NCBI GenBank assembly: GCA_029261855.1
Contig: JAJDAN010000039.1
Span: forward strand, 62,001-126,000
Reading direction: 5' to 3'
Source of the DNA: Deltaproteobacteria bacterium
GTDB lineage: Bacteria; Myxococcota_A; UBA9160; UBA4427
Length of the DNA stretch: 64,000 bases
The position numbers and the translations under genes were made by a program. This document shows, piece by piece, positions 39,786 to 55,390 of the stretch. Each line of letters starts with the position of its first letter. Position 1 is the stretch's first letter. The notes beneath the pieces were generated by a model. It made no database searches and was not told the DNA's origin. It saw nothing but the letters and a program-made list of their open reading frames with translations.

Positions 39786-39885
39786 GGGTGTGTTTCCGAC
39801 CGTCTTGCGAGTTGGGGGGCGCGCGCGAAGGGGGTAGCACGGCGGGGTGACACGAGCATATCCTCGGTCGAACCACCGGACCCCG

Positions 39886-41415
39886 ATGCTCTTCAACTCC
39901 ACGCCTTTCCTCTTCGCGTTCCTGCCGCTGGTGCTCGGCGGTTTCCTCGCGATGAAGCGACGGGGTCTTCCCGGCCTGGCGATCGGTTGGTTGCTCGCGG
40001 CATCCCTGTTGTTCTACGCCTGGGCGCAGCCGGGCTTCCTGGTCCTGCTCGTGACCTCGGTGCTGGCGAACTACGGGCTCGGACTCCGCATCCAGGACGC
40101 GTCCAGCGACACGGCGCGACGCAGGTGGCTCGTCGCCGGGGTCAGCGCAAACCTGCTGCTGCTGGGTGTCTTCAAGTACGCGGCGTTCGTCGTCGAGAGC
40201 TGGAATGGCGTCACCGGCAGTCAGTTCGAGACCGTTGCCTTCGGGCTCCCGCTGGCCATCTCGTTCTTCACCTTCCAGCAGATCGCCTACCTGTCCGACA
40301 CCGCGGCAGGTGAAGTGCGGGAGCGTCGGCTCGTCCCGTACGCCCTGTTCATCGCCTTCTTCCCCAAGCTGATCGCCGGGCCCATCGTCCACCACGCAGA
40401 GATGGTCGGCCAGGTGGATGCCCTCGCCGGGCGTCGGGAGACCTCTCGCGACCTTGCCGTCGGGCTGACCCTGTTCACGATGGGGCTGTTCAAGAAGGTC
40501 GTGCTGGCCGACGCCGTCGCGGGCCCGGCTGCCAGCTTCTTCGACGCCGCCGCCGGGGGCCTTGCGCTCACCTTTCTCGAGGCCTGGACGGCGGCGTTCG
40601 GCTTCACCATGCAGGTCTACTTCGACTTCTCGGGCTACTCCGACATGGCTCTCGGGCTCGCCCGCTGCTTCGGCATCGTGCTGCCGCTCAATTTCCACTC
40701 GCCCTACAAGGCAACGGACATCAACGAGTTCTGGCGACGCTGGCACATCACCCTGACACGCTGGCTGCGGCTGTTCTTGTTCGTTCCCATCAGCCGCAAG
40801 CTGATGCGTCGGGGAGAACGCTGGGACGTACCCGCGGTGGCGATCGCCCAGCTCGTCACCATGGGGCTCTGTGGGTTGTGGCACGGCGCCGGATGGACCT
40901 TCGTGTTGTGGGGCCTGCTGCACGGCGGCCTGCTGCTGGGGCACGACGGCTGGCTCGCTGTGAAGCGGCGACTCGGGCTCGCCGGGCGTCTGCCGCCAAG
41001 CCTGAGCCTGGCCCTGGGGCGGGCGTCGTTGCTTGCCGTCTTGATCGCGACCTTCGTGGTCTTCCGAGCCGCCGACCTCGGGGTCGCAGCCGAGATCCTC
41101 GGCGCGATGACGCGCATCGGCGACGTCCTCGACCCGACCGCGCAGGCCCGCTTCGCGGCGACCGTCGGGCTCGAGGGCGCCCTGGCCCTCACGGCGCTGC
41201 TCGTCATCGTCTGGGGAACGCCCAACAGCCAGCAGATCCTGGGGGACTACGAGCCCGCACTCGACGTCCAACGCTTTCGCGGCGCGCCCATCCACCCGCG
41301 TCTGCGCTGGCGCCCCAGCCTGCCCTGGGCACTCGTGACCGCCACCGTACTGCTCGCCTGCATCTACCAGGTCCTGGTCGAGGGATATGAAGAATTCATC
41401 TACCGATTCTTCTGA
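39886..41415 (+). CDS. MBOAT-family O-acyltransferase (AlgI-like)
   Basis: A 509-residue polytopic membrane protein. MLFNSTPFLFAFLPLV is the classic AlgI/MBOAT start, so ATG 39886 is preferred over codons upstream. The core has QIAYLSDTAAGEVRERRLVPYALFIAFFPKLIAGPI and YSDMALGLARCFGIVLPLNFHSPYKATDINEFWRRWHITLTRWLR, split by loops; the catalytic His lies in GLWHGAGWTFVLWGLLHG. It moves an acyl (often acetyl) group across the membrane onto a polysaccharide or other acceptor. Overlaps the SGNH partner gene by 29 bases. Confidence 0.95.
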   Translation: MLFNSTPFLFAFLPLVLGGFLAMKRRGLPGLAIGWLLAASLLFYAWAQPGFLVLLVTSVLANYGLGLRIQDASSDTARRRWLVAGVSANLLLLGVFKYAAFVVESWNGVTGSQFETVAFGLPLAISFFTFQQIAYLSDTAAGEVRERRLVPYALFIAFFPKLIAGPIVHHAEMVGQVDALAGRRETSRDLAVGLTLFTMGLFKKVVLADAVAGPAASFFDAAAGGLALTFLEAWTAAFGFTMQVYFDFSGYSDMALGLARCFGIVLPLNFHSPYKATDINEFWRRWHITLTRWLRLFLFVPISRKLMRRGERWDVPAVAIAQLVTMGLCGLWHGAGWTFVLWGLLHGGLLLGHDGWLAVKRRLGLAGRLPPSLSLALGRASLLAVLIATFVVFRAADLGVAAEILGAMTRIGDVLDPTAQARFAATVGLEGALALTALLVIVWGTPNSQQILGDYEPALDVQRFRGAPIHPRLRWRPSLPWALVTATVLLACIYQVLVEGYEEFIYRFF

Positions 41416-42340
41416 GGGGCGCGCCCTGCGGCGTTACAACTGGGTCCTGCTGGGCGGGACCATCGCGGTGTTGTGCCTTGCCGAGTGGATGCTGCGGGCC
41501 TTCGTCGTCCCGGTCATCGACTCGAGGGCCAACCGCGTGGACCAGGTCTACCGGGCCAGCAACCCGGACGCAGTCCTGGGCGACTCCCACCTCTACCGCG
41601 GCTTCCTGCGGTCCGAACGCTTCGAGAACCTCGCGCGGCCCGGCTCGTCTCCCGAAGCCCTCGAGATCGTGGCCCGGGAGTATTACCGCCGCCTCGCTCC
41701 GGGACGCGTGATCGTCCAGGCCAGCCCCCAGCTCTTCAACCCGGTGATGCTGCACGAAGGCACCCAGCTCCACGACGGCTGGTTCAGCCTGAACCTGGGC
41801 CTGCCCTTCGTCCCGTATCTCTTCGAGCCGGGGATCGGACGGGAACTGGCCGCGTTCAGGGACCCCGGCAATCTGCAACACAAGGCCCGGGTCGCCCTCG
41901 GGCGGCTGGTGGTCGACGGCGCCTTCGTCACGCGAATCGCGGCCTCACGTCGCAAGCTCAGCGACGAAGATCGACGCGAGCAGGCCGAGACGCGGGTGCG
42001 TCAGAACCGCCCGAGCCGGGACTTCGAGAGCACAGCGCCCTTCCAGTCGTACGCCCGCTTGGTCGACTTCCTGCTCGAGCGCGGCGCACGCGTGTGCCTC
42101 GCCGCCACGCCGGTGGACGACGCCTACCAGGAGGCAGCCCTCGAGGAACCTGGCCACCAGCAGGTCGATCGAGCGCTTCGCGCGCTCGCCGCCGAGCGAG
42201 GCGTTCCCTACGTGGACTTCCGCGACCTCGCGCTGTCCCTCGACGTCGCCGACTTCACCAACCCGGACCATCTGACCACCGGCGCCGGCATCCGGTACGC
42301 CGAGCGTCTCGAGGCCGCCTGCTTCTCGGACCGTCGCTGA
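41387..42340 (+). CDS. SGNH/AlgX-like partner of the MBOAT acyltransferase
   Basis: A 317-residue protein with one N-terminal membrane helix (VLLGGTIAVLCLAEWML) and a periplasmic SGNH-hydrolase-like domain. GDSHLYRGF is block I with the nucleophile Ser, and NPDHLTTGAGIRYAERL near the end contains the Asp-x-x-His-type catalytic pair. Together with the overlapping MBOAT gene it forms the usual two-component exopolysaccharide O-acetylation unit, this protein transferring the group to the acceptor. No polysaccharide synthase is nearby. Confidence 0.8.
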   Translation: MKNSSTDSSEGRALRRYNWVLLGGTIAVLCLAEWMLRAFVVPVIDSRANRVDQVYRASNPDAVLGDSHLYRGFLRSERFENLARPGSSPEALEIVAREYYRRLAPGRVIVQASPQLFNPVMLHEGTQLHDGWFSLNLGLPFVPYLFEPGIGRELAAFRDPGNLQHKARVALGRLVVDGAFVTRIAASRRKLSDEDRREQAETRVRQNRPSRDFESTAPFQSYARLVDFLLERGARVCLAATPVDDAYQEAALEEPGHQQVDRALRALAAERGVPYVDFRDLALSLDVADFTNPDHLTTGAGIRYAERLEAACFSDRR

Positions 42341-42361: not shown

Positions 42362-43624
42362 CTATCCAGGCGGGAGCGAAACGTCGGCGTCCACGTGATA
42401 GGCCCAGAGCGCCGGGATCGACAGGTGCACGGCGCCCACGACGCCGATGCAGGCGAGGCCGCCGAAGACCACCGCGAACACCGCGCTCGTGACCGACGCC
42501 AGGAAGCCCGTCTGCGCGTCGCCCAGCTCGTTGGACGCGCCGATGAAGATCATGTTCACGGCGTTGACGCGCCCGCGCAGCGCGTCCGGCGTGGCGAGCT
42601 GGAGGATGATCGACCGCGCGACCATGCTGAGCTGGTCGGCGATGCCACCCGCCACCAGGGCCAGGACCGCCAGCGGAAATGCCCGCACCAGTCCAAAGGC
42701 GATCGAGCTGAGCCCGAAGATCGAGACGGCGATCAGCAGTGCGCGACCCGGCCGCTGGAAACGCGGAAAAGCCAGCAGCCCGAGGGCCATCAAGACTGTT
42801 CCGGTCTGGGTCGACGCGGCCAGCAGGCCGTAGCCTCGCTCGCCCACGCCGAGGATGTCCGTCGCAAAGACCGGCAGCATGGCGTTCACGCCGGCGAACA
42901 ACACGGCGAACATGTCGAGGGTCATCGAACCGAGAATGACCTTGCGATTCCAGACGAAGGACAATCCTTCGCGCACGGACGCCCAGTCCACGGGTCGCCC
43001 ACCGCCTTCGATCCCCGGAGACCGCACGAAGAACAGCAGCCCGATGGAGACCGACATCAGGCCGACGGTCGCCGCGTAGGCGGCGGGGATGCCCGCCGCA
43101 GCCGCGATCAACCCCATCAGTACAGGACCCGACACCCTCGCCAGGTTGCGAACGTTCGAGCTGAGGATGGTCGCGGCGGGAAACTGCTCCCGCGTGACCA
43201 GCCCCGGCAGCAACGCCGCACCTGCAGGGTTCGAGAAGCAGCCGGCGACCGCCAGCGCGAAGGCGGCACCCAGGATCAGGGCCAGCTCCCCCCCGCCGTG
43301 GTGGCTCCCGAAGGCCAGCGCCGCGCCGCACAGCAGGCTCACGCCTTGTGCTGCCATGACGATGCGCCGCCGATCCCGATTGTCGGCGATGGCGCCGGCG
43401 ACGAGCGACACGGGAATCACGGGCAGGAACTCGACCAGGCCCAACAGGCCCAGGTCGAAGAGCGAGTCCGTGGCCTTCCAGAGGTGCCAGTGCAGGGTCG
43501 CGTGCAGCAGCGCGCGGGCGAGGCTCGCGAAGAAGCTGGACGACACGAGGTTGCGCACGTCGCGCAACGCCAGAACCTCCCGGATGGGATGGCTCGGCGG
43601 AATGGGGTCGAGCGGCTCGGCCAC
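42362..43624 (-). CDS. MFS transporter (enterobactin exporter EntS-like)
   Basis: A 420-residue 12-helix MFS carrier. SSFFASLARALLHATLHWHLWKATDSLFDLGLLGLVEFLPVIPVSLVAGAIADNRDRRRIVM, spread over the first two to three helices, contains the motif-A-like G-x-(I/L)-A-D-x-x-x-R-R. Central loop and second half are typical. GTG at 43624 has GGGAG four bases upstream; an upstream in-frame GTG at 43714 gives an unconserved leader. It probably exports a small hydrophobic compound. It follows the spermidine synthase gene on the same strand by 102 bases. Confidence 0.88.
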   Translation of the reverse strand: MAEPLDPIPPSHPIREVLALRDVRNLVSSSFFASLARALLHATLHWHLWKATDSLFDLGLLGLVEFLPVIPVSLVAGAIADNRDRRRIVMAAQGVSLLCGAALAFGSHHGGGELALILGAAFALAVAGCFSNPAGAALLPGLVTREQFPAATILSSNVRNLARVSGPVLMGLIAAAAGIPAAYAATVGLMSVSIGLLFFVRSPGIEGGGRPVDWASVREGLSFVWNRKVILGSMTLDMFAVLFAGVNAMLPVFATDILGVGERGYGLLAASTQTGTVLMALGLLAFPRFQRPGRALLIAVSIFGLSSIAFGLVRAFPLAVLALVAGGIADQLSMVARSIILQLATPDALRGRVNAVNMIFIGASNELGDAQTGFLASVTSAVFAVVFGGLACIGVVGAVHLSIPALWAYHVDADVSLPPG

Positions 43625-43726
43625 GGGCTCCCGGTCGATGCTAGGGGGTGCGGTGGGGTCGGATGGGCTGCTGTCGCAGGCGCGGGATGGTACGCGGTCG
43701 AGGTCCCCACACAAGCGCTCGCCGGG

Positions 43727-45427
43727 TCAGTCGGACAGCCAGCTCTCGTGCAGGTACAGCCCGAGCAGCACCGGGCGCATCAACGTGTTCACCTCGTCCG
43801 TATCGGCTTCGAGCTCGCCCTTGCCGAAGACGAGCGCGCTGCGGAACACGTCTGGCGTCAGGTAGCGCGTCGCTTCCGGAAAGCCGTCGACCCTCGACGC
43901 GCGCGCGCGAAGCCCCTCCACGTCCTCGCGCCCGGTGGTTGCCAGCAGGAAGCCCCAGCGCCCGAATGACGGAACGTCGTCGTGATACGGCACGACCGCG
44001 TAGCCCGCCGATTCGAGGGTCCGCAGGATGCAAAGGAACGCCTCGCGGCTGTGGTAGGGCGAGGTCGCCTGCAGGGCCACGACCGCCCCGGGCGCGAGCA
44101 CCCGCCGAAGCTTGCGGTAGAACTCCCGGCTGTAGAGCTTCGCAAGCTCGACCGAGCTCGGGTCCGGCAGGTCGATCACCACCACGTCCCAGAGGCCGGG
44201 TACCCCGTCGAGGAAGCGATCCGCGTCGACGTTCACCACGTCGACGCGCGCGACCTCCTCGACGAGGGCCTCTCCCCCGGGCGCGAGCCGGTCCGTCTCG
44301 ACGAAGACCGGACGGCGCATGCCGCCGGTGACGCCGGACGCGATCCGTGCGTGCACACGCGCATCGCGCAGGGAGTCGTCGTTGAGGTCCCGCAGCACCG
44401 CGTGCTCGCGGGCCAGCTCGGTCATGCGCGGATCGAGATCCACCAGGACGACCGACTCGACGCCCGGATGGCGCAGCACTTCGCGCAGGGCCAGGCCATC
44501 GCCGCCGCCCAGCACCAACACGCGCGTCCTGCGCTCGGCCAGCGCCATGGCGGGGTGCACGAGCTGCTCGTGATAGATCGCCTCGTCGCGACTCGACAGC
44601 TGCAGGTTGCCGTTCAGGAAGAGCCGATAGTCGTCCGCCACCGGATCGTGGGTGAGGACGATGCGCTGGTAGCGGGTCGTCTCGGCGAACACGATCCGGT
44701 CCTCGTAGAGCCGCTGCTCGAGGTCCAGACTCCAGTCGCGATTGCGCGCGAAGCCGACCGCGAGACAGACGGCCACCGCGACGATGGCAACGGCGCCCAG
44801 GACCCGGGACCGGGCGCCCGCCGTCCCGCGCGAGTTCGTGAAGTAGACGAAGGTCGCCCCGGCGATCGCGAAGTTGGCTCCCGCGATCAGGAAGCTGATC
44901 TCCGTGAGGGGCAGTTCCCGAAGCAGGAAGCGCGTCCAGACGAGGGCGCCCACGAATCCGCCCACGTAGTCGAGCCCGAGAATGAGCGCCAGATTGCTCG
45001 GCAGCGCCCGCCCCAGCCCGGCGTTGATCCGCAAGACGAGTGGCAGCTCGAAGCCGATCAAGAAGCCGATGGCCGCGACGAAGAAGTAGAGGACGAGCAG
45101 GAAGTGGTCGTCCATCAGTCCATAGGCGGCGTAGATGGCGATCGGCGCGAAGCCGCCCAGCAACGCGAGCAGGATCTCCACACCCATGAACTGCTCGATC
45201 AGCCAGCGGTCGGGGAAGAAGCGCTGGAGTGCGCCAGCGACACCCATCATCGCCATCATCAACGCGATGATCACGCTGAACTGCTCGATCGAGTTGCCGA
45301 GGATGTAGCTCGAGACCGTGCTGAGCAGGAACTCACTGACGAGCCCACAGAAGCCTGTGGCAAAGATCGAGAGGCCGAGCAGAAGAGTGCCGAGGCGCGG
45401 CGGAGCTTCGTCAGACACGCGGGACAT
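43727..45427 (-). CDS. Membrane-fused spermidine synthase-like aminopropyltransferase
   Basis: 566 residues. The first 220 hold about seven membrane helices (GLSIFATGFCGLVSEFLLSTVSSYILGN and others). The C-terminal half is a spermidine-synthase-type Rossmann domain: YEDRIVFAETTRYQRIVLT, YRLFLNGNLQLSSRDEAIYHEQLVHPAM, the dcSAM loop LGGGDGLALREVL at about 302-314, VVLVDLDPRMTEL, and VVVIDLPDPSSVELAKLYSREFY. Catalytic-site motifs are present, so it may add aminopropyl groups to an amine at the membrane. No SAM decarboxylase is in the window. Last gene of a seven- or eight-gene operon, 14 bases after DUF350. Confidence 0.9.
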   Translation of the reverse strand: MSRVSDEAPPRLGTLLLGLSIFATGFCGLVSEFLLSTVSSYILGNSIEQFSVIIALMMAMMGVAGALQRFFPDRWLIEQFMGVEILLALLGGFAPIAIYAAYGLMDDHFLLVLYFFVAAIGFLIGFELPLVLRINAGLGRALPSNLALILGLDYVGGFVGALVWTRFLLRELPLTEISFLIAGANFAIAGATFVYFTNSRGTAGARSRVLGAVAIVAVAVCLAVGFARNRDWSLDLEQRLYEDRIVFAETTRYQRIVLTHDPVADDYRLFLNGNLQLSSRDEAIYHEQLVHPAMALAERRTRVLVLGGGDGLALREVLRHPGVESVVLVDLDPRMTELAREHAVLRDLNDDSLRDARVHARIASGVTGGMRRPVFVETDRLAPGGEALVEEVARVDVVNVDADRFLDGVPGLWDVVVIDLPDPSSVELAKLYSREFYRKLRRVLAPGAVVALQATSPYHSREAFLCILRTLESAGYAVVPYHDDVPSFGRWGFLLATTGREDVEGLRARASRVDGFPEATRYLTPDVFRSALVFGKGELEADTDEVNTLMRPVLLGLYLHESWLSD

Positions 45428-45441
45428 GGGGGCGGCAGCAG

Positions 45442-46287
45442 CTAGAGCAGCACCGCGCCGATCACCAGCGCGAGCGCGATCTTGACTGCCACGGCCACCG
45501 CCACGGCCGCCGGGTTCGGCTCTGTCTCGATTTCCTGCCGCAGGGTCGTGCTGGGCAGGAAGAGCCGATCGACGGGCCACTGGAACAGCAGCAGCAGTGC
45601 GATCCCCATGCCCGCGCTGGCCACGAAACCGACGATGTCCTGTAGCCAGCCCCGGAAGGGCCCGAGCAGGGCGGCGTTGAGGATGAAGCCGAAGGCCAGC
45701 AGCATGCCACCCAACATCAGACCGGCGGCAACGTTGCCGTTTCGCACACCGTCGACCACCTGGTAGGGCGTGACTCTCTCGTAGGTCACGGCCATCGCGA
45801 GCAGCGCGAGCTGCCCCAGCAAGAAGAACACGATGGCACTGCCGACGCCGCCGCCGGCGCCCGCGAACGATCCGAACGCGATCAGCCCGGTCGCGACCGC
45901 AACGCCCAGCTCGACGAGCCCGACCGCCACGTTTCCGTCCCGAAGTGCCTCGTCGTTCCGGATCCCGTGCACGACCACCACGTCGCTCACGATCAGCGCG
46001 CCGTACAGGAACGCGACCATCACCGCGCCCTCGATGGCCATTTCGATGGCGTCTGCCGCGAAGCCTCCGCCCCCGCCGGACAGGGCCCCGAGCATCCCGA
46101 CGGCGACACCGAGATAGAGACCGGCGCTGCGGAGCGCGACCGCGAGATTGCGGCCGCCGACGATGAGCGCGTCCCCGTCGTAGACCTTGCGCATGCGCGC
46201 GTCGTTGAGCTGCTTGGCGATCCACATCCACAGGAAGGCGATCGCCGCGAACGCAACGGCCTCGAGGGCGTCGATCAGGAACTCCAT
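45442..46287 (-). CDS. DUF350 integral membrane protein
   Basis: 281 residues, about eight membrane helices arranged as two similar halves, each with a DUF350 unit: ALRSAGLYLGVAVGMLGAL in the first and NVAAGLMLGGMLLAFGFILNAAL in the second. GGAGGAAGCC lies upstream of the ATG. DUF350 (YjfL-type) proteins recur beside spermidine-synthase-like and DUF4178 genes, as here. The activity is unknown; a pore or a lipid-linked role is possible. It lies between the lipoprotein and the spermidine synthase, 25 and 14 bases away. Confidence 0.88.
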   Translation of the reverse strand: MEFLIDALEAVAFAAIAFLWMWIAKQLNDARMRKVYDGDALIVGGRNLAVALRSAGLYLGVAVGMLGALSGGGGGFAADAIEMAIEGAVMVAFLYGALIVSDVVVVHGIRNDEALRDGNVAVGLVELGVAVATGLIAFGSFAGAGGGVGSAIVFFLLGQLALLAMAVTYERVTPYQVVDGVRNGNVAAGLMLGGMLLAFGFILNAALLGPFRGWLQDIVGFVASAGMGIALLLLFQWPVDRLFLPSTTLRQEIETEPNPAAVAVAVAVKIALALVIGAVLL

Positions 46288-46312
46288 CGGGGCTTCCTCC
46301 GTTCGTCCGGGT

Positions 46313-47917
46313 TCACTTGCCGCCGCCTCCGGGACCGCCGCCGCGGCCACCGGGCCCCGCACCACGAATCGAGCGGTCCGCGCGGCCGAAGCCGCCCGAC
46401 CTTCCGAAGCCACTTCCCGCATAGCGCGGGCTGTTCCGAGTGCGGCTGCCGTAGGTGCCGTAGGAATCGTTGGCGCCGTACCAGGCGCTGCGCCCGCGGT
46501 AGTCGCGGTTCCAACGTCCCCAGTCGTTGTAGTAGTAATGGTGGCGGGGCCCGCCGAAGAGCAGGTAGTAGAACAGGAAGTTCTGGCCCCAGGCCCACTG
46601 TCTCCGGCCCTGGGCGTCTTCTTCCCACTGGCCGTAGCGAGAGTCGCCGACGTAGGCCATGCCCGGAGGCGCCGCTTCGCGCAGAGCCTCGTCTTCGTAC
46701 AGGCCGTAGGGCTTGGCGAGGATGTCCATTCCGAGGTCGTCGTAGTTGTCCTCGAAGACCTCCTCACTCACCTCCTGCCAGTCCGTCTCCTGGGACGTCT
46801 CGCCTTCGACGACCGCATAGCGGTGGTAGTAGCGAGCACGCGAGTCGCCGACCCAAAACTCCGCCGAGTCGTCTCCCCGGGGCAGCCCGGCGACAGCGTC
46901 CACGCGGAGCGCGTCCCACAAGCGCTGGTCGATCTCGATGGTCAGGCTCTTTCTCCCGAAGAAGCTCGAGAGCTTGGCGATCGGGCGGTCGCCAACGGCT
47001 TCGAGGGTCTCGAGGTCCTCCGGCGAGACGTCGACCCAGCTGCGCGTCTCGGTCTCGCGCGGAAAATCGTAGGCGTCGTTCCAGCTGGTGCGACCGATTT
47101 CCACCGCGCCTTCCTGCTTCATGTCGACCAGGGTCTTCGAGTAGCTGCGGTACAGCTCCGCGACGCGGCCGCGGAGCGCCGCCTCGGCGACCCCCAGAGC
47201 GGCAGCTCCCGCCGCCGCCGCGGCGGTCGCGTCGCCCAGGCGCGCGAGGTTGGCGTCTCCTCGCGCGAGCCCCGGTAGCTCGTCCTCTGCCACTTCGAGC
47301 TGCGCGTTCGTCTCGTCGCGGTTGCGACGCACGGCCGCGATGCGCCCGGCCAGGTCTTCGGCCTTCGCCGGGTACTCGACGGCGGCCCGCGCGACCTCGC
47401 CTTCGAGGTCGTCTGCGGCAGCCGTCGCGGCAGCCACCGCCGCGCGCGCTTCAGAGAGCTGGTCCCCGCCGTGCAGGCGCACGTCCTCGAGGAAGGCGGC
47501 TCGGCTCGCCGGCTCGCGGACGAGCTCGGCAGCGCGGTCGAGGCTCGCGGTCAGGCGCGTCAGCTGGCCTCGCAGCGAGGTCTCGTCTTCGGCCCGGTCG
47601 GACTCCAGCAGCGGCGCGACTTCGGTCTCGAAGAGCGAGCGTCCGTGATCGATCTCGCCCCGCGCTTCGTCGAAGTGCGCCGACCAGTCTTCACCCTCGG
47701 CGTAACGCCGCAGATGGGCGTGTTGCTCTTCGGCGAGGAAGCGCGACAACGCCTGGCTGCGGGAATCCACAGCTTCGGACTCGCGGTCGATCCGTTCGGC
47801 GAGGGACTCGGCCCGCGTCCGCAGGTCTTCGGGAAGACCACACGCGACGAGCCCAGACGCCAGGGACGCCAGCAGCGCGAAGCGCGCGAGTCGCGCCAGC
47901 CCCTGGAACGACATCAC
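46313..47917 (-). CDS. Coiled-coil lipoprotein with Gly/Tyr/Arg-rich tail
   Basis: 534 residues. The signal sequence ends in the lipobox LVAC (Cys26), so it is a membrane-anchored lipoprotein. About 30-290 is Ala/Glu/Arg-rich coiled coil (RTRAESLAERIDRESEAVDSR, in pieces). About 300-460 is a mixed domain with FFGRKSLTIEIDQRLWDALR and several Trp/Tyr-rich stretches. The last 70 residues are low complexity (YYYNDWGRWNRDYRGRSAWY, then GPGGRGGGPGGGGK). I do not recognise the family. Its GTG start overlaps the DUF2617 stop as GTGA, so it belongs to the TelA/DUF350/spermidine synthase operon. Confidence 0.8.
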   Translation of the reverse strand: MMSFQGLARLARFALLASLASGLVACGLPEDLRTRAESLAERIDRESEAVDSRSQALSRFLAEEQHAHLRRYAEGEDWSAHFDEARGEIDHGRSLFETEVAPLLESDRAEDETSLRGQLTRLTASLDRAAELVREPASRAAFLEDVRLHGGDQLSEARAAVAAATAAADDLEGEVARAAVEYPAKAEDLAGRIAAVRRNRDETNAQLEVAEDELPGLARGDANLARLGDATAAAAAGAAALGVAEAALRGRVAELYRSYSKTLVDMKQEGAVEIGRTSWNDAYDFPRETETRSWVDVSPEDLETLEAVGDRPIAKLSSFFGRKSLTIEIDQRLWDALRVDAVAGLPRGDDSAEFWVGDSRARYYHRYAVVEGETSQETDWQEVSEEVFEDNYDDLGMDILAKPYGLYEDEALREAAPPGMAYVGDSRYGQWEEDAQGRRQWAWGQNFLFYYLLFGGPRHHYYYNDWGRWNRDYRGRSAWYGANDSYGTYGSRTRNSPRYAGSGFGRSGGFGRADRSIRGAGPGGRGGGPGGGGK

Positions 47918-48510
47918 CGTCGCGCCTTCGGGTGAACGACGATCCGCGTCTGCGAGAAGACGATCGTCTGCTCGTTCGGATAGCAGTGCGCCGTCTCCAC
48001 CTGGATGTCATCTCGACCCGGGTCGAGCCGCGCCCAGACGATCGTGCGGGGCGCGACGTCCGGATCGAAGCTTCCACCTCCGCCACTGCCGCGGACCGCG
48101 GGGGTCCGCGGGAGACTGGGCTCGCGACTGGGAAAGGTGTACGCGAGACCGATCTCGCCCCGGCCCGCCTCGACGGCGGCGACCCGTCCTTCGAGCTCGC
48201 GAAGTCCCTCCCGGCCCGAGACCGTATCCGCCAGCTGCGACGAGAAGCTGTATTCGAAGCCCCGCGAAGCCTCGCACGCGAAGCCGCCCGGCAACTCGCG
48301 CAGGCTTCCCGAATAGAGCTGGCGAGCGGGATCGGCGGGCGGCGCGACGTCGCAGCAGGCGAACACCTCGTGCAGCGGTGCGCCGCGTGCGGGAAGCACC
48401 TCGAGCACGTGGCTGGCACCGATGATCCCCGCCCGCAGCCGGACCGTGGAGCGCGCGACGTCCGCCGCAGCGAGCAAGGTGAACTGGCTGAGGTCGAGGG
48501 GGCCGTCCAC
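47914..48510 (-). CDS. DUF2617 family protein
   Basis: About 198 residues from the first GTG. GIIGASHVLEVL, the strand YSFSSQLADTV, GEIGLAYTFPSREP and the C-terminal TAHCYPNEQTIVFSQTRIVV match the DUF2617 outline (a G-x-SH loop early and an H-x-(F/Y)-P-E/N...Q-(S/T) ending). The frame stays open, with protein-like sequence, back to the DUF4178 stop at 48574, without ATG or GTG before 48510, so the N-terminus may be longer from a rare codon. Function unknown; this family recurs with DUF350, DUF4178 and spermidine synthase genes. Stop overlaps the lipoprotein start. Confidence 0.7.
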   Translation of the reverse strand: MDGPLDLSQFTLLAAADVARSTVRLRAGIIGASHVLEVLPARGAPLHEVFACCDVAPPADPARQLYSGSLRELPGGFACEASRGFEYSFSSQLADTVSGREGLRELEGRVAAVEAGRGEIGLAYTFPSREPSLPRTPAVRGSGGGGSFDPDVAPRTIVWARLDPGRDDIQVETAHCYPNEQTIVFSQTRIVVHPKARR

Positions 48511-48573
48511 GACGTTCAGCCGCAGCTGTCCTGCCGACTGGTCGATGTAGCCCTGGTGGGTCGAAGCCAGCGG

Positions 48574-49206
48574 TCAGCTCCCGGTGGGCACGGCGACGAC
48601 CTCAACGGCGTCGGGGCCGACGTACTCGCTCTCGAAAACGACGTATTCGTAGCCGTCGCTGGCGCTCCCCCATTCCTCGACCGTGAGACAGTGGCGCTCG
48701 TTCCGGGTCTCGAAGTCGTAGAAGTAGACCGCCTCGCCGGTGGCCCCGGCATTGGCCCCATTCCGGAAATAGGTCGCGCCGTAGTCGTCGTCGTAGCGGT
48801 AGCTGCGCCCGCCGAACGGAATCGTGCCTTCCTCTGACTCGGACATGGCCTCGACCTGGTCGGCGGTCACACCGACGTCGCGCAGGGACAGCTCGGGACC
48901 GTTCACGCTGATCTCGATCTCGTCGTCCTTTTCCCATTCGACGTACACGGTCAGGCCCGATTCGAGCCCGAGCAGCTCGAGCTCGTGCCAACCCGAGCCC
49001 TTTTCCCGGTACTCGCTGACGGACTCCACCCGGTAGAGCTCGTCGCCGCCGGAGATCGATGCGTCCACCCGGATGTAGGCGCCGGCCGCGACGCCTTCGA
49101 TGCCGTGGCGGTAGCGGTCCCGGGACGGGATCGGCGCAGGCATCGCCCGGATGGCGTCGAACTGCTTGTCCAGGCGACGCAGAGCCGCCCGCTCCTCGCC
49201 GGTCAC
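48574..49206 (-). CDS. DUF4178 domain protein
   Basis: 210 residues, soluble, acidic. The core (about 30-190) fits DUF4178: GVAAGAYIRVDASISGGDELYRVESVSEY, then WHELELLGLESGLTVYVEWEKDDEIEIS, a beta-rich fold with a G-x-x-Y-x-V strand and a conserved W-x-E. GTG start overlaps the TelA stop as GTGA. Function unknown; the domain is known mainly from neighbourhoods with DUF350 and spermidine synthase. Confidence 0.75.
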   Translation of the reverse strand: MTGEERAALRRLDKQFDAIRAMPAPIPSRDRYRHGIEGVAAGAYIRVDASISGGDELYRVESVSEYREKGSGWHELELLGLESGLTVYVEWEKDDEIEISVNGPELSLRDVGVTADQVEAMSESEEGTIPFGGRSYRYDDDYGATYFRNGANAGATGEAVYFYDFETRNERHCLTVEEWGSASDGYEYVVFESEYVGPDAVEVVAVPTGS

Positions 49207-50414
49207 CGGGTGCCCCCGTTTCCCGTACCGGCGCCCGGGTCGTCCCCCGCCTCGGAGGGCAGCTCGAACTCACGCGAAGCCCGCAGGGCTTCCGCGCGGG
49301 GCGCCAGCCCGGCGCTCATCTGGTCCAGCTCGGCGATGCCCGAGCGCGCGGACTCGGTGCCGGCGCGGCGAATCTCGTCCATCTGGTCCATGGCGCCCAT
49401 CAGGTCGTCATAGGCCGCCTTGACCTTGTCGAGCGCCAGCACCGGGTTCTTGTACATGTCGCCGATCTCGGAGGTCTGCTGGCGAATCGACGCGGCGTTC
49501 GCGGCGAGCATGTCCGCCGTGTACTCCTGGGTCTCCTTCACCGCTTCCATGATCTTCTTCTGGTTCGCGAGCGCGGCCTGGATCGCGAGCCCGACGGTGA
49601 GCAGCGACCTCGTCACCGTGACGGTTCGCGTGATGGCGTCACTCAGGTGGTCGTTGTTCTGGATCGTCAGGTCGATGCTGATGAAGAACTGCGTGTTGAC
49701 CTGCTCCATGGTGCGCAGGTCCTGCACGCGCATGGCAACGCGGTGGACGAGCGTCTCGAGCCGCTGCCGTTCGCCGGCCTCCGGGGCGTCGTCGCCCGTA
49801 CCGGCGAGCTGGGCCTCCAGGCCCTGCCAGAGCAGCTCACCGAGGTACGAGGCTTTCTGCACTTCAAGCTGCGCGGCCTGCACCTGCCGGTAGAGACGGT
49901 CGAGTTCGAGACTGTCCTGCAGCAGCTGGTCCTTGCCGGCGCGCAGCCCGTCGACGATCGAATCGATCTGGGTCTGCACGGATTCGTACTTGACAGCGAT
50001 GTCGGCCAGCACGTCGCCGATCAGGGGCGTACGTCGCAACAAGCGACTCAGCAGCCCCCTCGGCTTGCTCGCCAGGACGTGTGGATTCACGTCGTCCATG
50101 GTCTTGCGCAGCTTCACCAGGCCCTGGGGGATACGGGACCCCGGCCCGTCGAGATCGCTGAGCAGTGCGCCGACCTTCGTCTTGAGCAGATCGATTTCGT
50201 GACCGGCCCGCTGCTGGGCGTCGCTGCCGAGCGCGCCGAGACTGCGCGCGAGTTGGCGGTCTTCGGGCTCGCTCTCGAGACGTTCGAGCAACCCTTTCGC
50301 GCGCTGCTGCAACTCGCTTGCGTCGGCCTCGGCCACCTGGGCCGGGAGCTTCGGTTCGGGGCTCTTCGGCGGTGCGCTCGCAGGCGTCGGAACCACGCTG
50401 CCGTCTTCGCTCAT
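49203..50414 (-). CDS. telA: TelA/KlaA-type toxic anion resistance protein
   Basis: 403 residues, helical, cytoplasmic. After a Pro-rich start come IDLLKTKVGALLSDLDGPGSRIPQGLVKLRKTMDDVNPH, then LIGDVLADIAVKYESVQTQID and MEQVNTQFFISIDLTIQNNDHLSDAITRTVTVTRSLLTVGLAIQAALANQKKIMEAV in successive blocks; these are TelA hallmarks. The family was named from tellurite resistance plasmids but is widespread in envelope stress. ATG after GGAGGTGGC. An XpaC-like gene lies 35 bases upstream, the same pairing as xpaC-yaaN in Bacillus. Confidence 0.93.
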   Translation of the reverse strand: MSEDGSVVPTPASAPPKSPEPKLPAQVAEADASELQQRAKGLLERLESEPEDRQLARSLGALGSDAQQRAGHEIDLLKTKVGALLSDLDGPGSRIPQGLVKLRKTMDDVNPHVLASKPRGLLSRLLRRTPLIGDVLADIAVKYESVQTQIDSIVDGLRAGKDQLLQDSLELDRLYRQVQAAQLEVQKASYLGELLWQGLEAQLAGTGDDAPEAGERQRLETLVHRVAMRVQDLRTMEQVNTQFFISIDLTIQNNDHLSDAITRTVTVTRSLLTVGLAIQAALANQKKIMEAVKETQEYTADMLAANAASIRQQTSEIGDMYKNPVLALDKVKAAYDDLMGAMDQMDEIRRAGTESARSGIAELDQMSAGLAPRAEALRASREFELPSEAGDDPGAGTGNGGTR

Positions 50415-50449
50415 GCCACCTCCTTCTATTCCTGGCGTGTTCGGGGCCG

Positions 50450-51040
50450 TCAGCCGAGATTCGGGTCGAGGAACCGTGCGCGCAGGAAGGCCGCCTTCGT
50501 CTTGAACTCGCCGACCCGGGCGCTCTTCAAGAGCTCGACGATGTTCGCGAGCTCAGCGTCGAGACCCTCGAGGCTGAGGAGCAGCTCTGCCCGGTGCTCG
50601 TCCCGGGCGGCCGCTCCTAGCGCCGCGAAGGGCTTCACGATGCGGGCGAGGTAGTCGCTCGCCATTCGATTCACCGTCCACGTCAGCTCGCTGCCCGCGT
50701 GGTCCTGGTTCAGCTCCGGAATCAATCGCCGCAGTACGTCGATGCTCTGCTCGAGTCGGGCGACGACCGTCGCATCGAGCGCCTGTTCGCGGATCAGCAG
50801 GTTCACGCCGGCGAGCTTCTGGAGATGATCGATCCACTCCGCGCGGGCGGGCGCCGAGTCCTCGCTCGTCGGCGCGGAGCCAGGCGCTGCCCCCAGGCTG
50901 CGGTGCACGAGAATCGCGACGACGGCTGCGACCGCGGCGCTGACCACGGTCACCGCCAGCTGCTGTACGGAGAGTGCGACGAAGACCACGGCCGCGACCA
51001 GGGCGAGTGACACGAGCCATCGTTTGCTGCTCCCGGTCAA
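50450..51040 (-). CDS. XpaC-like membrane protein
   Basis: 196 residues. A double membrane hairpin at about 8-48 (WLVSLALVAAVVFVALSVQQLAVTVVSAAVAAVVAIL, one or two helices) is followed by a helical cytoplasmic part (IDHLQKLAGVNLLIREQ, LEQSIDVLRRLIPELN, LLLSLEGLDAELANIVELLKSA). Layout and position next to telA match XpaC. TTG start: GGGAGGG lies five bases upstream and the TTG overlaps the glycosyltransferase stop as TTGA, so the start is well supported. Confidence 0.7.
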   Translation of the reverse strand: MTGSSKRWLVSLALVAAVVFVALSVQQLAVTVVSAAVAAVVAILVHRSLGAAPGSAPTSEDSAPARAEWIDHLQKLAGVNLLIREQALDATVVARLEQSIDVLRRLIPELNQDHAGSELTWTVNRMASDYLARIVKPFAALGAAARDEHRAELLLSLEGLDAELANIVELLKSARVGEFKTKAAFLRARFLDPNLG

Positions 51041-52416
51041 CTCGTCCCTCCCCTCTCGCCCCTCGTCGGGGCGTCCTCACTTGCTTTGCAGGTGGTAGGA
51101 CGGCGCGAAGCATAGCGAGTCCGCATCGCGCCGAAGGCTGCGAATATCGCGATCGCAAAGTCGACCGGCGAACGCTTGCGCGATTCGCCCTGAGTGAGCA
51201 CCCGCAGACCCGTCCAGACCACGGGTAGCGACAACAGCAACAGCACCAGCAGTCGCTCGCTACCCCGAGTCCGCCGCAGCATGTCTGCTGCACCTCGCGC
51301 TGCGAGCCAGAGCACCGCGAGCCACAGCAGCACCGTCAGCGCGAGCCAGCTGGCGAGACCCGGCATCTCTTCGAAGACGCGCCGTGCGGTGCCGACGACG
51401 CCATACTCGTGGACCCAGTCGGAACGCTTCCCGGTGTACGCGTAGGCGCCGAGATAGCGGAAGAGATCCAGGTTGTCCGGCAAGACGAGCAATTTGCCCA
51501 CCTGCAACGCCCACTCGCGGGTGAACGCGCCCGGCCGCTCGAGCGCCGCACGCACGAACGCCGCGGCTGGCTTCGCCTCGATGACCGCGACCTCATCGGC
51601 GTCCGCCGGCGCGAGCACGCGCTGGGCGCGATTCGCGAGCTCCCACTCCAGGCTCAACGAGGCGCGTTCGAGCCGTACCGGCTCGGAGGTGGCAAGACCC
51701 AGATAGAGGCCGATCGGTACGAAGGTCAGCAGCGCGAGCGTCGCGAGGTGCAGCGCCGCCTGCGCCCGGACTCGCGTCCGGACCCGGCTCCACACGAGCG
51801 GCACGGCGATGCCGAACATCACCAGCAGCCACGGCAGCCCCTCGGGTCGCGTCACCGCGGCGAGCCCGAAGCAGAGCCCGGCACCGGCAATCGACCCGAG
51901 TCCCGCACGGCCTGCGCCGTAGCGAACCAGGGCCGCCACCCCGAAGACCAGCAGCGGATTGAAGAACGCCTCGGATGCCAGGAAGTGCGGGATCGCGAAG
52001 TCGATCGGGATCGCTGCATAGAGGACCGCCGCGAGCCACGCGATCTCACTGGCTGCGCGAAGCCCCAGACCCGCAGCCAGGGTCCCGGCGATGCGATGGA
52101 CGGCGAAGATCGACAACCCGGCGAGCAGCAACTGGACGATCTGGAGTGCCGCCAGGGACTCGCCCGTCGGACCCAGCACGACCGCCTGCCAGGCGTAGTC
52201 ACCCGGGGCGCCCCGAGTCCGCAGGACCTCGGCCACCTCGGCGGGACCGGCCGCCCCGACGAGCATCCGGGCCGATGCGATCCGGCGTCCGGTGCGGTCG
52301 AAGCGCAGGGAGGCCTCGGGGTCGAAGATCCCCCACGCCAACAGGCCCACGTGCGCCGCCAGCAACGCGACGAGCACCCATCGGAGCCGCCGGGACCGGT
52401 CCCCCGCTTCGGTCAT
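51037..52416 (-). CDS. GT39-like polytopic membrane glycosyltransferase
   Basis: 459 residues with about ten membrane helices. The first long loop (FDRTGRRIASARMLVGAAGP) and helices such as WLAAVLYAAIPIDFAIPHFLASEAFFNPLLVFG resemble the GT-C fold of ArnT/PMT (GT39) enzymes, which move a sugar from a polyprenyl phosphate to an acceptor in the periplasm. No typical N-terminal DE motif is obvious, so the assignment is tentative. It opens the TelA/spermidine synthase operon (TTGA overlap) and is transcribed away from ipdA across a 261-bp spacer. Confidence 0.7.
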   Translation of the reverse strand: MTEAGDRSRRLRWVLVALLAAHVGLLAWGIFDPEASLRFDRTGRRIASARMLVGAAGPAEVAEVLRTRGAPGDYAWQAVVLGPTGESLAALQIVQLLLAGLSIFAVHRIAGTLAAGLGLRAASEIAWLAAVLYAAIPIDFAIPHFLASEAFFNPLLVFGVAALVRYGAGRAGLGSIAGAGLCFGLAAVTRPEGLPWLLVMFGIAVPLVWSRVRTRVRAQAALHLATLALLTFVPIGLYLGLATSEPVRLERASLSLEWELANRAQRVLAPADADEVAVIEAKPAAAFVRAALERPGAFTREWALQVGKLLVLPDNLDLFRYLGAYAYTGKRSDWVHEYGVVGTARRVFEEMPGLASWLALTVLLWLAVLWLAARGAADMLRRTRGSERLLVLLLLSLPVVWTGLRVLTQGESRKRSPVDFAIAIFAAFGAMRTRYASRRPTTCKASEDAPTRGERGGTS

Positions 52417-52501
52417 GGGCGGGGTATATCGCCGTTGGCTGTCTCTGGCTCTCCCTGCCCCCCTGGACCGCCCGCCCACCCGGGCCCGGGCCCCGATCGC
52501 G

Positions 52502-52530
52502 TTTACAGAAACGATACGTACCGTTACGAT
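52502..52530 (+). promoter_or_regulatory. Sigma-70-type promoter with a 16-bp palindromic operator in its spacer, upstream of ipdA
   Basis: TTTACA (52502-52507) and TACGAT (52525-52530) are separated by exactly 17 bases. Between them AACGATACGTACCGTT (52510-52525) is a palindrome with only one mismatched pair, abutting the -10 box. This is the arrangement of TetR-type repression by steric block. The promoter faces ipdA (start 52678), giving an untranslated leader of about 140 bases; the same site lies 94 bases from the divergent glycosyltransferase start. The sequence does not match the mycobacterial KstR2 box as I recall it, so a different regulator is likely. Confidence 0.6.
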
Positions 52531-52677
52531 ATAGGGCCCCGGCGGGGCATCCCGGGACCTCGAAAACAGCCGCCGAGCCGATCGGGTCCGAACGCTTCAT
52601 CTTCTCATGGGCGGCGGGAGCCACGAGAGAGCCGTCGCAGCGGCGGGCCCGCACGGGCGACTTCATCAGGAGAACCG

Positions 52678-53526
52678 GTGGACAAGCGCACCACGGAGAA
52701 GGAAGCCGTCGCCGAACTCGCGGATGGCATGACGATCGGGATCGGCGGTTGGGGGTCTCGCCGCAAGCCCATGTCCATCGTGCGCGAGATCCTGCGCACG
52801 GACCTTCGCGACCTCACGGTCGTCACCTACGGTGGCCCGGACGCCGGGATCCTGTGCGCCACCGGCCGGGTCAAGCGATTGATCTACGGCTTCGTGTCTC
52901 TCGACTCGATCCCCCTGGAGCCCCACTTCCGCAAGGCCCGACAGGCCGGGAGCTTCCGGGCGTCGGAGCTGGACGAGGGAATGCTGCAGTGGGGCCTGTA
53001 TGCCGCCGCCCAGCGCATCCCCTTCCTGCCGACCCGCGCCGGGCTCGGGTCCGACGTGCTCACCATCAACCCCGAGCTCAAGCTCGTGAAGTCGCCCTAC
53101 GCGGATGGTGAAGAGCTGGTCGCGATGCCCGCCCTCGAACTCGATGCGGCCTTCATCCACATGAATCGCGCGGACGTCCACGGCAACGGTCAGTTCCTGG
53201 GACCGGACCCGTACTTCGACGATCTGTACTGCATGGCGGCCAAGCGACGCTTCATGACCTGCGAGAAGATCGTCGACACCCCCGACCTGCTGAAGGGCGG
53301 AACGCTCCATACCCTGAAGATCCACCGGGCCATGGTCGACGGCGTGATCGAGGCCCCGGGCGGCGCCCACTTCACCGAGTGCCCCCCGGACTACGGACGC
53401 GACGAGGCCTTCCAGAAGGAGTACGCCGCCACGGCGCGGGACCCCGACGCCTGGGACGCCTTCCGACAGAAGTACCTCGAGCGGGGCAGCGAGGCGGAAT
53501 ACCAGGAGGCGGTGCGAAAGCGATGA
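52678..53526 (+). CDS. ipdA: Steroid ring-cleaving CoA-transferase-family hydrolase, subunit A (IpdA-like)
   Basis: 282 residues, class I CoA-transferase alpha fold. ADGMTIGIGGWGSRRKPM, VVTYGGPDAGILCATGRVKR, YGFVSLDSIPLEPHF, LDEGMLQWGL and VIEAPGGAHFTECPPDYGRDE follow mycobacterial IpdA almost block by block. IpdAB opens the last steroid ring (COCHEA-CoA hydrolysis), using the transferase fold as a hydrolase. GTG start with CAGGAGA upstream. Stop overlaps ipdB as ATGA, so the two subunits are coupled. First gene after the palindromic promoter. Confidence 0.9.
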   Translation: MDKRTTEKEAVAELADGMTIGIGGWGSRRKPMSIVREILRTDLRDLTVVTYGGPDAGILCATGRVKRLIYGFVSLDSIPLEPHFRKARQAGSFRASELDEGMLQWGLYAAAQRIPFLPTRAGLGSDVLTINPELKLVKSPYADGEELVAMPALELDAAFIHMNRADVHGNGQFLGPDPYFDDLYCMAAKRRFMTCEKIVDTPDLLKGGTLHTLKIHRAMVDGVIEAPGGAHFTECPPDYGRDEAFQKEYAATARDPDAWDAFRQKYLERGSEAEYQEAVRKR

Positions 53527-54284
53527 GCGACTTCACGAGAGCCGAGGTGTGCGCGGTCGCGGTCGCCGAGGCCTTCCGCGGCGACGGGGAGATCCTGGCG
53601 AGCTGCTTCGGCACGACCCCCGCGGTGGGCGCGCGGCTGGCGAAGCTCAGCTTCGAGCCGGACCTGATCATGACCGATGGCATCGCGTCGGCGATCCGCA
53701 ACGTACCGCCGGTGAGCGGGCCGAAGACCGAGGAAGACATCGTCGAGGCCTGGCTGCCCTTCCGAACCATCTTCGACCTGCTCTGGAACGGCCGACGACA
53801 CGTCATGATGGTGGCCAGCCAGATCGATCGTTACGGCAACCAGAACTTCGCCTGCATCGGTCCCCACGAAAAGCCGAAGGCGCAGCTGCTCGGCATGCGC
53901 GGCGCGCCGGGCAACACCATCAGCCACCGCACCAGCTACTGGGTGCCGAACCACAATCCCCGGGTCTTCGTCGAGAAGGTCGATGTGGTTTCCGGAGTGG
54001 GTTACGACCGCGCCCGCGCCCTGGGCGAGGCGTCGGCAAAGCACCACTGCATCCACCGGGTGATCTCGAACCTCGGCGTCTTCGACTTCGACACGCCGGA
54101 CAACGCCATGCGGCTCGCCTCGGTCCACCCGGGTGTGAGCGTCGACGACGTAGTCGAGGCGACCGCATTCGAACTGGTCGTCCCGAACGACGTACCCGAG
54201 ACCCGGGCGCCCACGGACGAAGAGCTTCGGATCATCCGCGAGGTGCTCGACCCCGAAGGCTACGCCAACAAGGAAGTCGCCTGA
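53523..54284 (+). CDS. ipdB: Steroid ring-cleaving CoA-transferase-family hydrolase, subunit B (IpdB-like)
   Basis: 253 residues, class I CoA-transferase beta fold. EAFRGDGEILASCFGTTPAVGARLAKL, the DLIMTDGIA strand, WNGRRHVMMVASQIDRYGNQNFACIG and SYWVPNHNPRVFVEKVDVVSGVGYDR match IpdB. The block after GNQN is typical of this hydrolase branch rather than acetoacetate CoA-transferases. ATGA overlap with ipdA; ipdC starts 31 bases later. Confidence 0.9.
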   Translation: MSDFTRAEVCAVAVAEAFRGDGEILASCFGTTPAVGARLAKLSFEPDLIMTDGIASAIRNVPPVSGPKTEEDIVEAWLPFRTIFDLLWNGRRHVMMVASQIDRYGNQNFACIGPHEKPKAQLLGMRGAPGNTISHRTSYWVPNHNPRVFVEKVDVVSGVGYDRARALGEASAKHHCIHRVISNLGVFDFDTPDNAMRLASVHPGVSVDDVVEATAFELVVPNDVPETRAPTDEELRIIREVLDPEGYANKEVA

Positions 54285-54315
54285 GGTGGTCGACAGTGGG
54301 TCCCAGGGAGTCCCC

Positions 54316-55368
54316 GTGTCTGCGCTCCGCACAGAGATCTGCGATCGGCTCGGTGTCCGCTACCCGATCATCCAGACGGGCATGGGCTGGGTGGCGACTC
54401 CCGAGCTGGTGGCGGCCGTGAGTAACGCCGGCGCCATCGGTTTTCTCGCTGCGGCGACCCTGCGTCCGCAGGACGTCGCGGCCGAGATCGACAAGGTAAA
54501 GGCACTCACCGACCAGCCCTTCGGCGTGAACTTCCTGATGGACGCCCCCGGCGCAGACATCATCAGCGACGCGATCATCGCCGCGGGCGTCAAGGCGGCG
54601 GGCTACAACCGCGCTCCCAGCGCGGAGCTGATCGGCAAGCTGAAGGACGCCGGGGTGGTCTGCGTACCGACCTGCGGCGCACCGAAGCACGCCGTCAAGG
54701 CGCAACAACTCGGCGCCGACATCATCATCGTCCAGGGCGGTGAAGGCGGGGGGCACACGGGCTCGATCCCCACGTCCCTGCTGGTCTCCGAATGCGCCGA
54801 CGCGGTGGATGTTCCCGTGGTCGCCGCCGGTGGCTTCCGGGACGGTCGCGGCCTGGTCGCCGCACTGGCCTTCGGCGCCCGGGGCATCGCCATGGGCACT
54901 CGCTTCCTGCTCACCCGAGAGAGCCCCGTGCCTCCCCAGACCGCCGAGCGCTACCTCGCAGCCGCCATGACCGACGTCATCGTCACGACCGAGATCGACG
55001 GCATGCCCCAGCGCGTGGTCCTCAACGAGCTGGTGCGGGGACTCGAGAGCGGAAGCGGGCTCGGCAAGCTCTGGAACGCGCTTCGCAGCGCCCTCGCGTT
55101 CCGCAAGCTCAGCGGCGCGAGCATTCCAGACCTGATCCGAAGCGCGATCTCCATGCAGCGGAACGAGAGACTCAGCCGGTCCCAGGTACTGATGGCCGCA
55201 AACGCCCCCATGCTCGCGCGGCGCGCCATGACCGAAGGCGACCCGGTCCACGGCTATCTCCCGAGCGGCACCGTGGCGGGCGTGATCGACGACCGCCCCT
55301 CCTGCGCCGAGCTGATCGAACGCATCATGAACGAAGCCGAAGCCACGCTGAAGAGCATGGCCCCGTGA
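54316..55368 (+). CDS. ipdC: Nitronate monooxygenase-like flavoprotein (IpdC-like)
   Basis: 350 residues, FMN-binding TIM barrel of the 2-nitropropane dioxygenase family. RYPIIQTGMGWVATPELVAAVSNAGAIGF opens the barrel in two parts; GGEGGGHTG at about 140-148 is the phosphate/FMN loop and VVAAGGFRDGRGLVAALAFGARGIAMGTRFLLTRES the next two. In mycobacteria the paralogue next to ipdAB, IpdC, acts as a reductase in steroid C/D-ring breakdown. The GTG at 54316 is preferred over 54286 because GGGAG lies five bases upstream. Confidence 0.88.
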   Translation: MSALRTEICDRLGVRYPIIQTGMGWVATPELVAAVSNAGAIGFLAAATLRPQDVAAEIDKVKALTDQPFGVNFLMDAPGADIISDAIIAAGVKAAGYNRAPSAELIGKLKDAGVVCVPTCGAPKHAVKAQQLGADIIIVQGGEGGGHTGSIPTSLLVSECADAVDVPVVAAGGFRDGRGLVAALAFGARGIAMGTRFLLTRESPVPPQTAERYLAAAMTDVIVTTEIDGMPQRVVLNELVRGLESGSGLGKLWNALRSALAFRKLSGASIPDLIRSAISMQRNERLSRSQVLMAANAPMLARRAMTEGDPVHGYLPSGTVAGVIDDRPSCAELIERIMNEAEATLKSMAP

Positions 55369-55390
55369 CGGCTCGCCGAGAGGAGCAGGG

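Follow-up and report, generated by a model that had tools for sequence, protein, structure and literature searches.

The window analysed here is a 64,000-nucleotide stretch of a Deltaproteobacteria bacterium genome (GCA_029261855.1, contig JAJDAN010000039.1, positions 62,001 to 126,000; GTDB lineage Myxococcota_A, UBA9160, UBA4427). It carries a minus-strand operon in which a membrane-fused spermidine-synthase-like enzyme (SpdS) is encoded together with DUF350, TelA and a lipoprotein that ends in Gly-Lys (Table 1). Gene calls and junctions bear out the original prediction, made from the sequence alone, of eight tightly packed genes at 43727-52416. The first gene, encoding a glycosyltransferase, overlaps that of a small membrane protein by four bases (TTGA), and a 35-base gap leads from there to the TelA gene, which in turn overlaps DUF4178 by four bases (GTGA). 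DUF2617 follows after 63 bases and overlaps the lipoprotein gene (start GTG or ATG); the last two gaps, lipoprotein to DUF350 and DUF350 to SpdS, measure 25 and 14 bases. The predicted extent overlooked a ninth gene, encoding a major facilitator superfamily (MFS) transporter, which lies 12 bases past the SpdS stop and brings the directon to nine genes.

Most of the predicted gene names held as well. Pfam and NCBIfam models recognize TelA (E 4e-53), DUF4178 (8e-14), DUF2617 (3e-14), DUF350 (1.5e-38, in two stretches) and the spermidine synthase (1.7e-29). The small membrane protein had been named XpaC, an identity that we rejected: it has no PF10112 match, the homologue from Gemmatimonadales reaches only 15.9 bits with that model (cut-off 29.8), and hhalign gives a probability of 0.3% against canonical XpaC, with small alignments. 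The first gene, predicted to be GT39, is at best PMT-like; the window protein has no Pfam match, and its congener homologue (64% identity) reaches 20.2 bits against PMT (cut-off 22.7).

Table 1. Features of the operon and of its products (window coordinates)
Feature	Position	Strand	Basis
7TM-fused aminopropyltransferase (SpdS-like), 566 aa	43727..45427	-	NCBIfam PRK03612, AlphaFold, solved-structure match
Seven transmembrane helices of SpdS, residues 12-240	44708..45394	-	AlphaFold helices, loop charges
Aminopropyltransferase domain of SpdS, residues 244-566	43730..44698	-	33-sequence alignment, T. thermophilus alignment
DUF350, duplicated membrane protein (YjfL family, 8TM type)	45442..46287	-	Pfam PF03994, two stretches, 132 bits
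Lipoprotein, 533 aa	46313..47914	-	Sequence, AlphaFold, homologues in clades A and B
Disordered C-terminal lipoprotein tail, residues 512-533, end GGGGK	46316..46381	-	Homologue endings, pLDDT <50
Terminal Gly-Lys codons of lipoprotein (stop codon 46313-46315)	46316-46321	-	
DUF2617	47914..48510	-	Pfam PF10936, 53.9 bits
DUF4178	48574..49206	-	Pfam PF13785, 52.4 bits
TelA	49203..50414	-	Pfam PF05816, 181 bits (cut-off 30); closest relatives Gemmatimonadales, Desulfatibacillum
Small membrane protein adjoining TelA ("XpaC" by position only)	50450..51040	-	Conservation across loci
Multi-TM GT-C/PMT-like glycosyltransferase, genus-specific first gene	51037..52416	-	Congener homologue
MFS transporter (MFS_3), genus-level ninth gene	42362..43714	-	Pfam PF05977

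Related genomes keep the core genes together. A Gemmatimonadales locus (L036) encodes the small protein, TelA, DUF4178, DUF2617, lipoprotein, DUF350 and SpdS in the same order as the window, without the glycosyltransferase. Because order and content are kept in another phylum at protein identities of 26-53%, the operon is not a chance assembly. Two Desulfobacterota (L042, L071) retain six of these seven genes, with TelA missing from between, and a more distant Myxococcota family keeps DUF4178-lipoprotein-DUF350-SpdS. Plasmids of Alteromonas mediterranea carry a relative ordered SpdS-speD-small protein-TelA-DUF4178-lipoprotein-DUF350. The small membrane protein is conserved in five loci and has a remote homologue in Alteromonas. 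The idea of a single system thus survives for the core, and not for the glycosyltransferase, which occurs only in the congener among 41 related genomes and is missing from the upstream side of the loci in Gemmatimonadales and Desulfobacterota; we rejected it as a core member. The MFS gene adjoins the 3' side of SpdS in the sole congener (L005) too.

The genes could instead form a loose stress island, in which TelA-type and polyamine-type modules are merely co-regulated and share no joint reaction. Consistent with this, Desulfatibacillum encodes a related TelA elsewhere in its genome, the Hydrogenedentota genome yielded no TelA, and the glycosyltransferase and MFS genes are genus-level additions. 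We nevertheless consider a loose island decidedly improbable, given the identical seven-gene order in Myxococcota and Gemmatimonadales and the grouping of TelA, small protein, DUF4178, lipoprotein and DUF350 in Alteromonas as well. TelA is also rare in Myxococcota (10 of 360 genomes above the cut-off), yet both genomes of the window's genus have it; within the family, the congener is the only other carrier among the 41 relatives.

The gene set appears in several forms. Other loci pair the enzyme with PspA and CesT plus a potassium channel, or with SPFH plus an amine oxidase and speD, and in the Hydrogenedentota operon the slot of TelA or PspA, upstream, is taken by a fused SBP_bac_3/ion-channel gene with ligand-gated channel architecture (L038:5281-6510). 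The common core is thus SpdS, DUF350 and an anchored protein, and the membrane-scaffold modules joined to it can be swapped. The distribution of SpdS is patchy. Among the 41 related genomes only the congener has it (there the operon is split over two contigs), its relatives at 53-58% identity are found in Gemmatimonadales, Hydrogenedentota, a Parcubacteria bin and Desulfobacterota, and high-scoring SpdS occurs in 1 of 298 genomes of the phylum of the Gemmatimonadales locus and 1 of 68 of that of the Hydrogenedentota locus. From this patchiness we infer horizontal spread of the operon.

SpdS matches NCBIfam PRK03612 over its full length (596 bits, cut-off 472). In its AlphaFold model (mean predicted local distance difference test score, pLDDT, 86.5) exactly seven long helices precede the catalytic domain, and the catalytic half adopts the fold of aminopropyltransferases (Foldseek, Thermus SpeE 1uir, E 8.6e-17). 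In a 33-sequence alignment built without plasmid-derived rows, the Asp pair D419/D422 is kept in 33 of 33 sequences, and D310, D401, Y285, H286 and Q254 are likewise invariant. The enzyme carries DxPDP where T. thermophilus SpeE has DxTDP, a change that may point to a different acceptor. Lysine plus arginine counts per loop alternate clearly (2.6/0.15/2.4/0.24/3.0/0.9/2.7) and the charge past helix 7 is net negative; following the positive-inside rule, the N-terminus is predicted to be inside and the catalytic domain is probably extracytoplasmic.

The lipoprotein consists of a lipobox (LVAC), an alpha-helical coiled-coil stalk (residues 29-254), a beta domain (258-442) and a disordered Arg/Gly/Ser tail. 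Its AlphaFold model has a pLDDT of 85.6 overall and below 50 over residues 512-533. A search of solved folds in the PDB returned nothing below E 0.001, and a phage origin was rejected because phages gave no match. The tail itself is variable, and all intact homologues seen, those of distant phyla included, have Gly-Lys directly before the stop. PspA-type operons encode a different, 284-aa secreted protein that ends ...SGGRFGGK. This family can be aligned with the 533-aa lipoprotein over 38 tail columns only, ending at the lysine (hhalign 94%, E 2e-7); whole-protein homology was rejected, with nothing found past the tail. Still other operon types have as the neighbour a single-TM protein of 60-90 aa, predicted N-in/C-out and likewise bearing a Gly-rich tail and a GK end.

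We surveyed this ending across 102 membrane-SpdS loci (46 clusters at 60% identity), counting open reading frames (ORFs) that are co-directional, have a hydrophobic segment and a Gly-rich tail, and end in G-X. The last residue was Lys in 65 of the 102 loci and 27 of the 46 clusters; Gly followed in nine loci, Ser in three, Leu in two and Gln in one. None of the opposite-strand and distal controls (51 stretches, 194 kb) gave a GK ending, and Lys is the last residue of 36 of 772 long ORFs in these loci. The GK ending is associated with membrane-SpdS, which makes the terminal lysine a strong candidate target of the enzyme. The original prediction had pointed in the right direction with a polyamine-like modification at the envelope. 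It overlooked the C-terminal Gly-Lys, whose conservation makes it likelier that the lipoprotein is the substrate than that it acts as a sensor.

We regard it as an evenly balanced proposition that the operon is an envelope-protein tagging device, in which the seven-transmembrane (7TM) SpdS aminopropylates the C-terminal lysine of the lipoprotein outside the cytoplasm. The enzyme would move the aminopropyl group of decarboxylated S-adenosylmethionine (SAM) to the side-chain amine of that lysine, and the product would be an N6-(3-aminopropyl)lysine end on a flexible Arg/Gly/Ser-rich tail. Catalytic domain and tail would probably both be extracytoplasmic, in keeping with export of the lipoprotein and with the orientation predicted for the small GK proteins, and the donor might conceivably be brought across the membrane by DUF350, by the 7TM domain or by both. 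Decarboxylated SAM fits as the donor, since speD adjoins SpdS in 11 of 48 well-flanked loci, as it also does in the TelA-type Alteromonas operon.

The full-length PRK03612 match, the intact aminopropyltransferase site and the co-occurrence of speD would also suit an enzyme at the membrane whose product is a free polyamine, either spermidine or aminopropylcadaverine. The lipoprotein would then only bind or sense this product, and Gly-Lys would be a binding or sorting feature. This leaves unexplained why unrelated anchored neighbours share a terminal lysine. Such fusions are also said (Li et al. 2019) to fail to replace E. coli speE and to occur in hosts without spermidine, and we find free-polyamine synthesis quite unlikely.

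Amine oxidases add a further consideration. They are present in 35 of the 102 loci, and those downstream of membrane-SpdS in many sister operons (PF01593) carry twin-arginine translocation (Tat) plus lipobox signals (L024, L031, L083, L157, L158 and others). Such exported oxidases suggest that an aminopropyl product is oxidized outside the cytoplasm. They could also mean that Gly-Lys tags the protein for another reaction, such as cross-linking after oxidation of the amine or attachment of a larger group, while SpdS modifies something else, for example a lipid or peptidoglycan. No oxidase is found among the operon genes of the window, and SpdS, common to all GK loci (which were selected by it), offers the most economical explanation of how the tag is read; a different tagging reaction is thus unlikely in our judgement.

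Several observations weigh against aminopropylation of the lipoprotein. The survey filter for GK was missed by 37 of the 102 loci. By inspection, about six of these also end in GK if the filters on length, tail or hydrophobicity are loosened; of the remainder a few end HK or VK, and others are cut by contig ends or have no such protein. In the congener (L005:2000-2120) the lipoprotein frame has no stop after GGGGK and continues into the DUF350 region, either as an error of the metagenome-assembled genome or its assembly, or as a real feature. The tails resemble those of DUF1190 and other GG proteins in composition, and significant homology between them was rejected, as profile comparison gave none. 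We know of no precedent for an extracytoplasmic pool of decarboxylated SAM. A whole-genome search for prokaryotic-type SAM decarboxylase (AdoMetDC; PF02675), which the original prediction had found missing from the window, had no match in this genome (98.6% complete), nor in the Gemmatimonadales and Parcubacteria genomes. The congener genome has one PF02675 decarboxylase, away from any SpdS-like gene. The class 2 family PF01536 had no match in seven genomes, which is uninformative, since the control had none either.

Around the operon, scans detected no RNA elements or tRNAs, and the promoter scan gave a single sigma-70-like match, on the strand opposite to the operon. Just beyond the MFS gene, a gene for an MBOAT-family-like O-acyltransferase and a possible partner gene lie on the plus strand (39847-42340). 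Nitronate-monooxygenase-like and enoyl-CoA-hydratase-like genes lie close to the operon in the window (52479-56167) as well as in Desulfatibacillum (L042:3-1815), through a shared neighbourhood or by coincidence.

Membrane-fused spermidine synthases linked to AdoMetDC and DUF350 were reportedly described by Li et al. 2019, who are said to have proposed an acceptor other than putrescine without naming one. The window enzyme is like these fusions in its architecture and its linkage to DUF350, and differs in that a lysine-ended neighbour is proposed as the acceptor.

E. coli YgiC and YjfC are reported (Pederick et al. 2023, as cited elsewhere) to be peptide-spermidine ligases with the DUF1190 partners YgiB and YjfM. 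Like those systems, the operon type studied here has DUF350 and PspA neighbours and an Arg/Gly/Ser-tailed partner protein. Unlike them, it encodes an aminopropyltransferase in place of an ATP-grasp ligase, and its partner ends GGGGK where theirs usually ends GG. In our set, the DUF1190 or equivalent partner of ATP-grasp peptide-spermidine ligase operons ends GG in six of eight (L176, L177, L178, L183, L130, L135). Joining spermidine through an amide bond requires the Gly-Gly form of the end. The aminopropyl-lysine end would chemically resemble the Gly-Gly-spermidine end that ATP-grasp ligases are expected to make on GG proteins. None of the nine operon genes encodes an ATP-grasp ligase; the whole genome was not searched for one.

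Closest in gene content is an operon of the second CesT-PspA group of Ravi et al. 2024 (PMC11237479), with PspA-CesT, a 7TM spermidine synthase, DUF350, DUF4178 and a lipoprotein of the Ctha_1186 type. The window shares its 7TM-SpdS fusion, DUF350 with eight transmembrane helices (8TM), DUF4178 and the presence of a lipoprotein; in contrast, its slot holds TelA and the small membrane protein, and DUF2617 is added. The main text of that paper mentions neither TelA, XpaC nor a C-terminal lysine, and a literature search did not find the TelA form. The TelA form is a new variant of the published 7TM-SpdS/DUF350 operon and the Gly-Lys rule is a new result; Li et al. 2019 or Pederick et al. 2023 might already mention C-terminal residues. 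A DUF2617/DUF4247 variant with AdoMetDC is known from M. tuberculosis (CCP45394/CCP45395, PMC11237479). The window likewise has DUF2617 with DUF350 and a polyamine-type enzyme. It differs in that DUF4247 was not recognized in its operon and its genome has no AdoMetDC of the PF02675 family.

TelA is best known from its association with tolerance of tellurite and antibiotics. Because it occupies the PspA slot and in Listeria has reportedly been linked to tolerance of nisin and tellurite, TelA with its small partner could form an inner-membrane scaffold or stress-sensing module, in the place that PspA-CesT or SPFH takes in sister operons. As in the Firmicutes XpaC-TelA pair (for example lmo1966-lmo1967, PMC12791056), a small membrane protein is encoded directly upstream of TelA, although that of the window is unrecognizable as XpaC. 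The canonical pair examined has no adjoining polyamine-type genes.

Many bacteria encode a membrane-fused spermidine synthase and, linked to it, a SAM decarboxylase; to our knowledge the acceptor of these synthases is not known. The operons around membrane SpdS are tied to envelope stress through PspA, TelA and SPFH, and the Gly-Lys rule points to one specific residue, on one specific protein, as an acceptor that can be tested by mass spectrometry. TelA is thereby placed in the slot that PspA holds in sister operons. Tentatively, and somewhat short of an even chance, this may be a modification not described before, made on the C-terminal lysine of exported tails by an outward-facing aminopropyltransferase using exported decarboxylated SAM; it would be a counterpart of Gly-Gly-spermidine ligation with TelA replacing PspA as the scaffold. 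If true, the ATP-grasp ligase acting on GG ends and the aminopropyltransferase acting on GK ends would be two routes to polyamine-ended envelope proteins.

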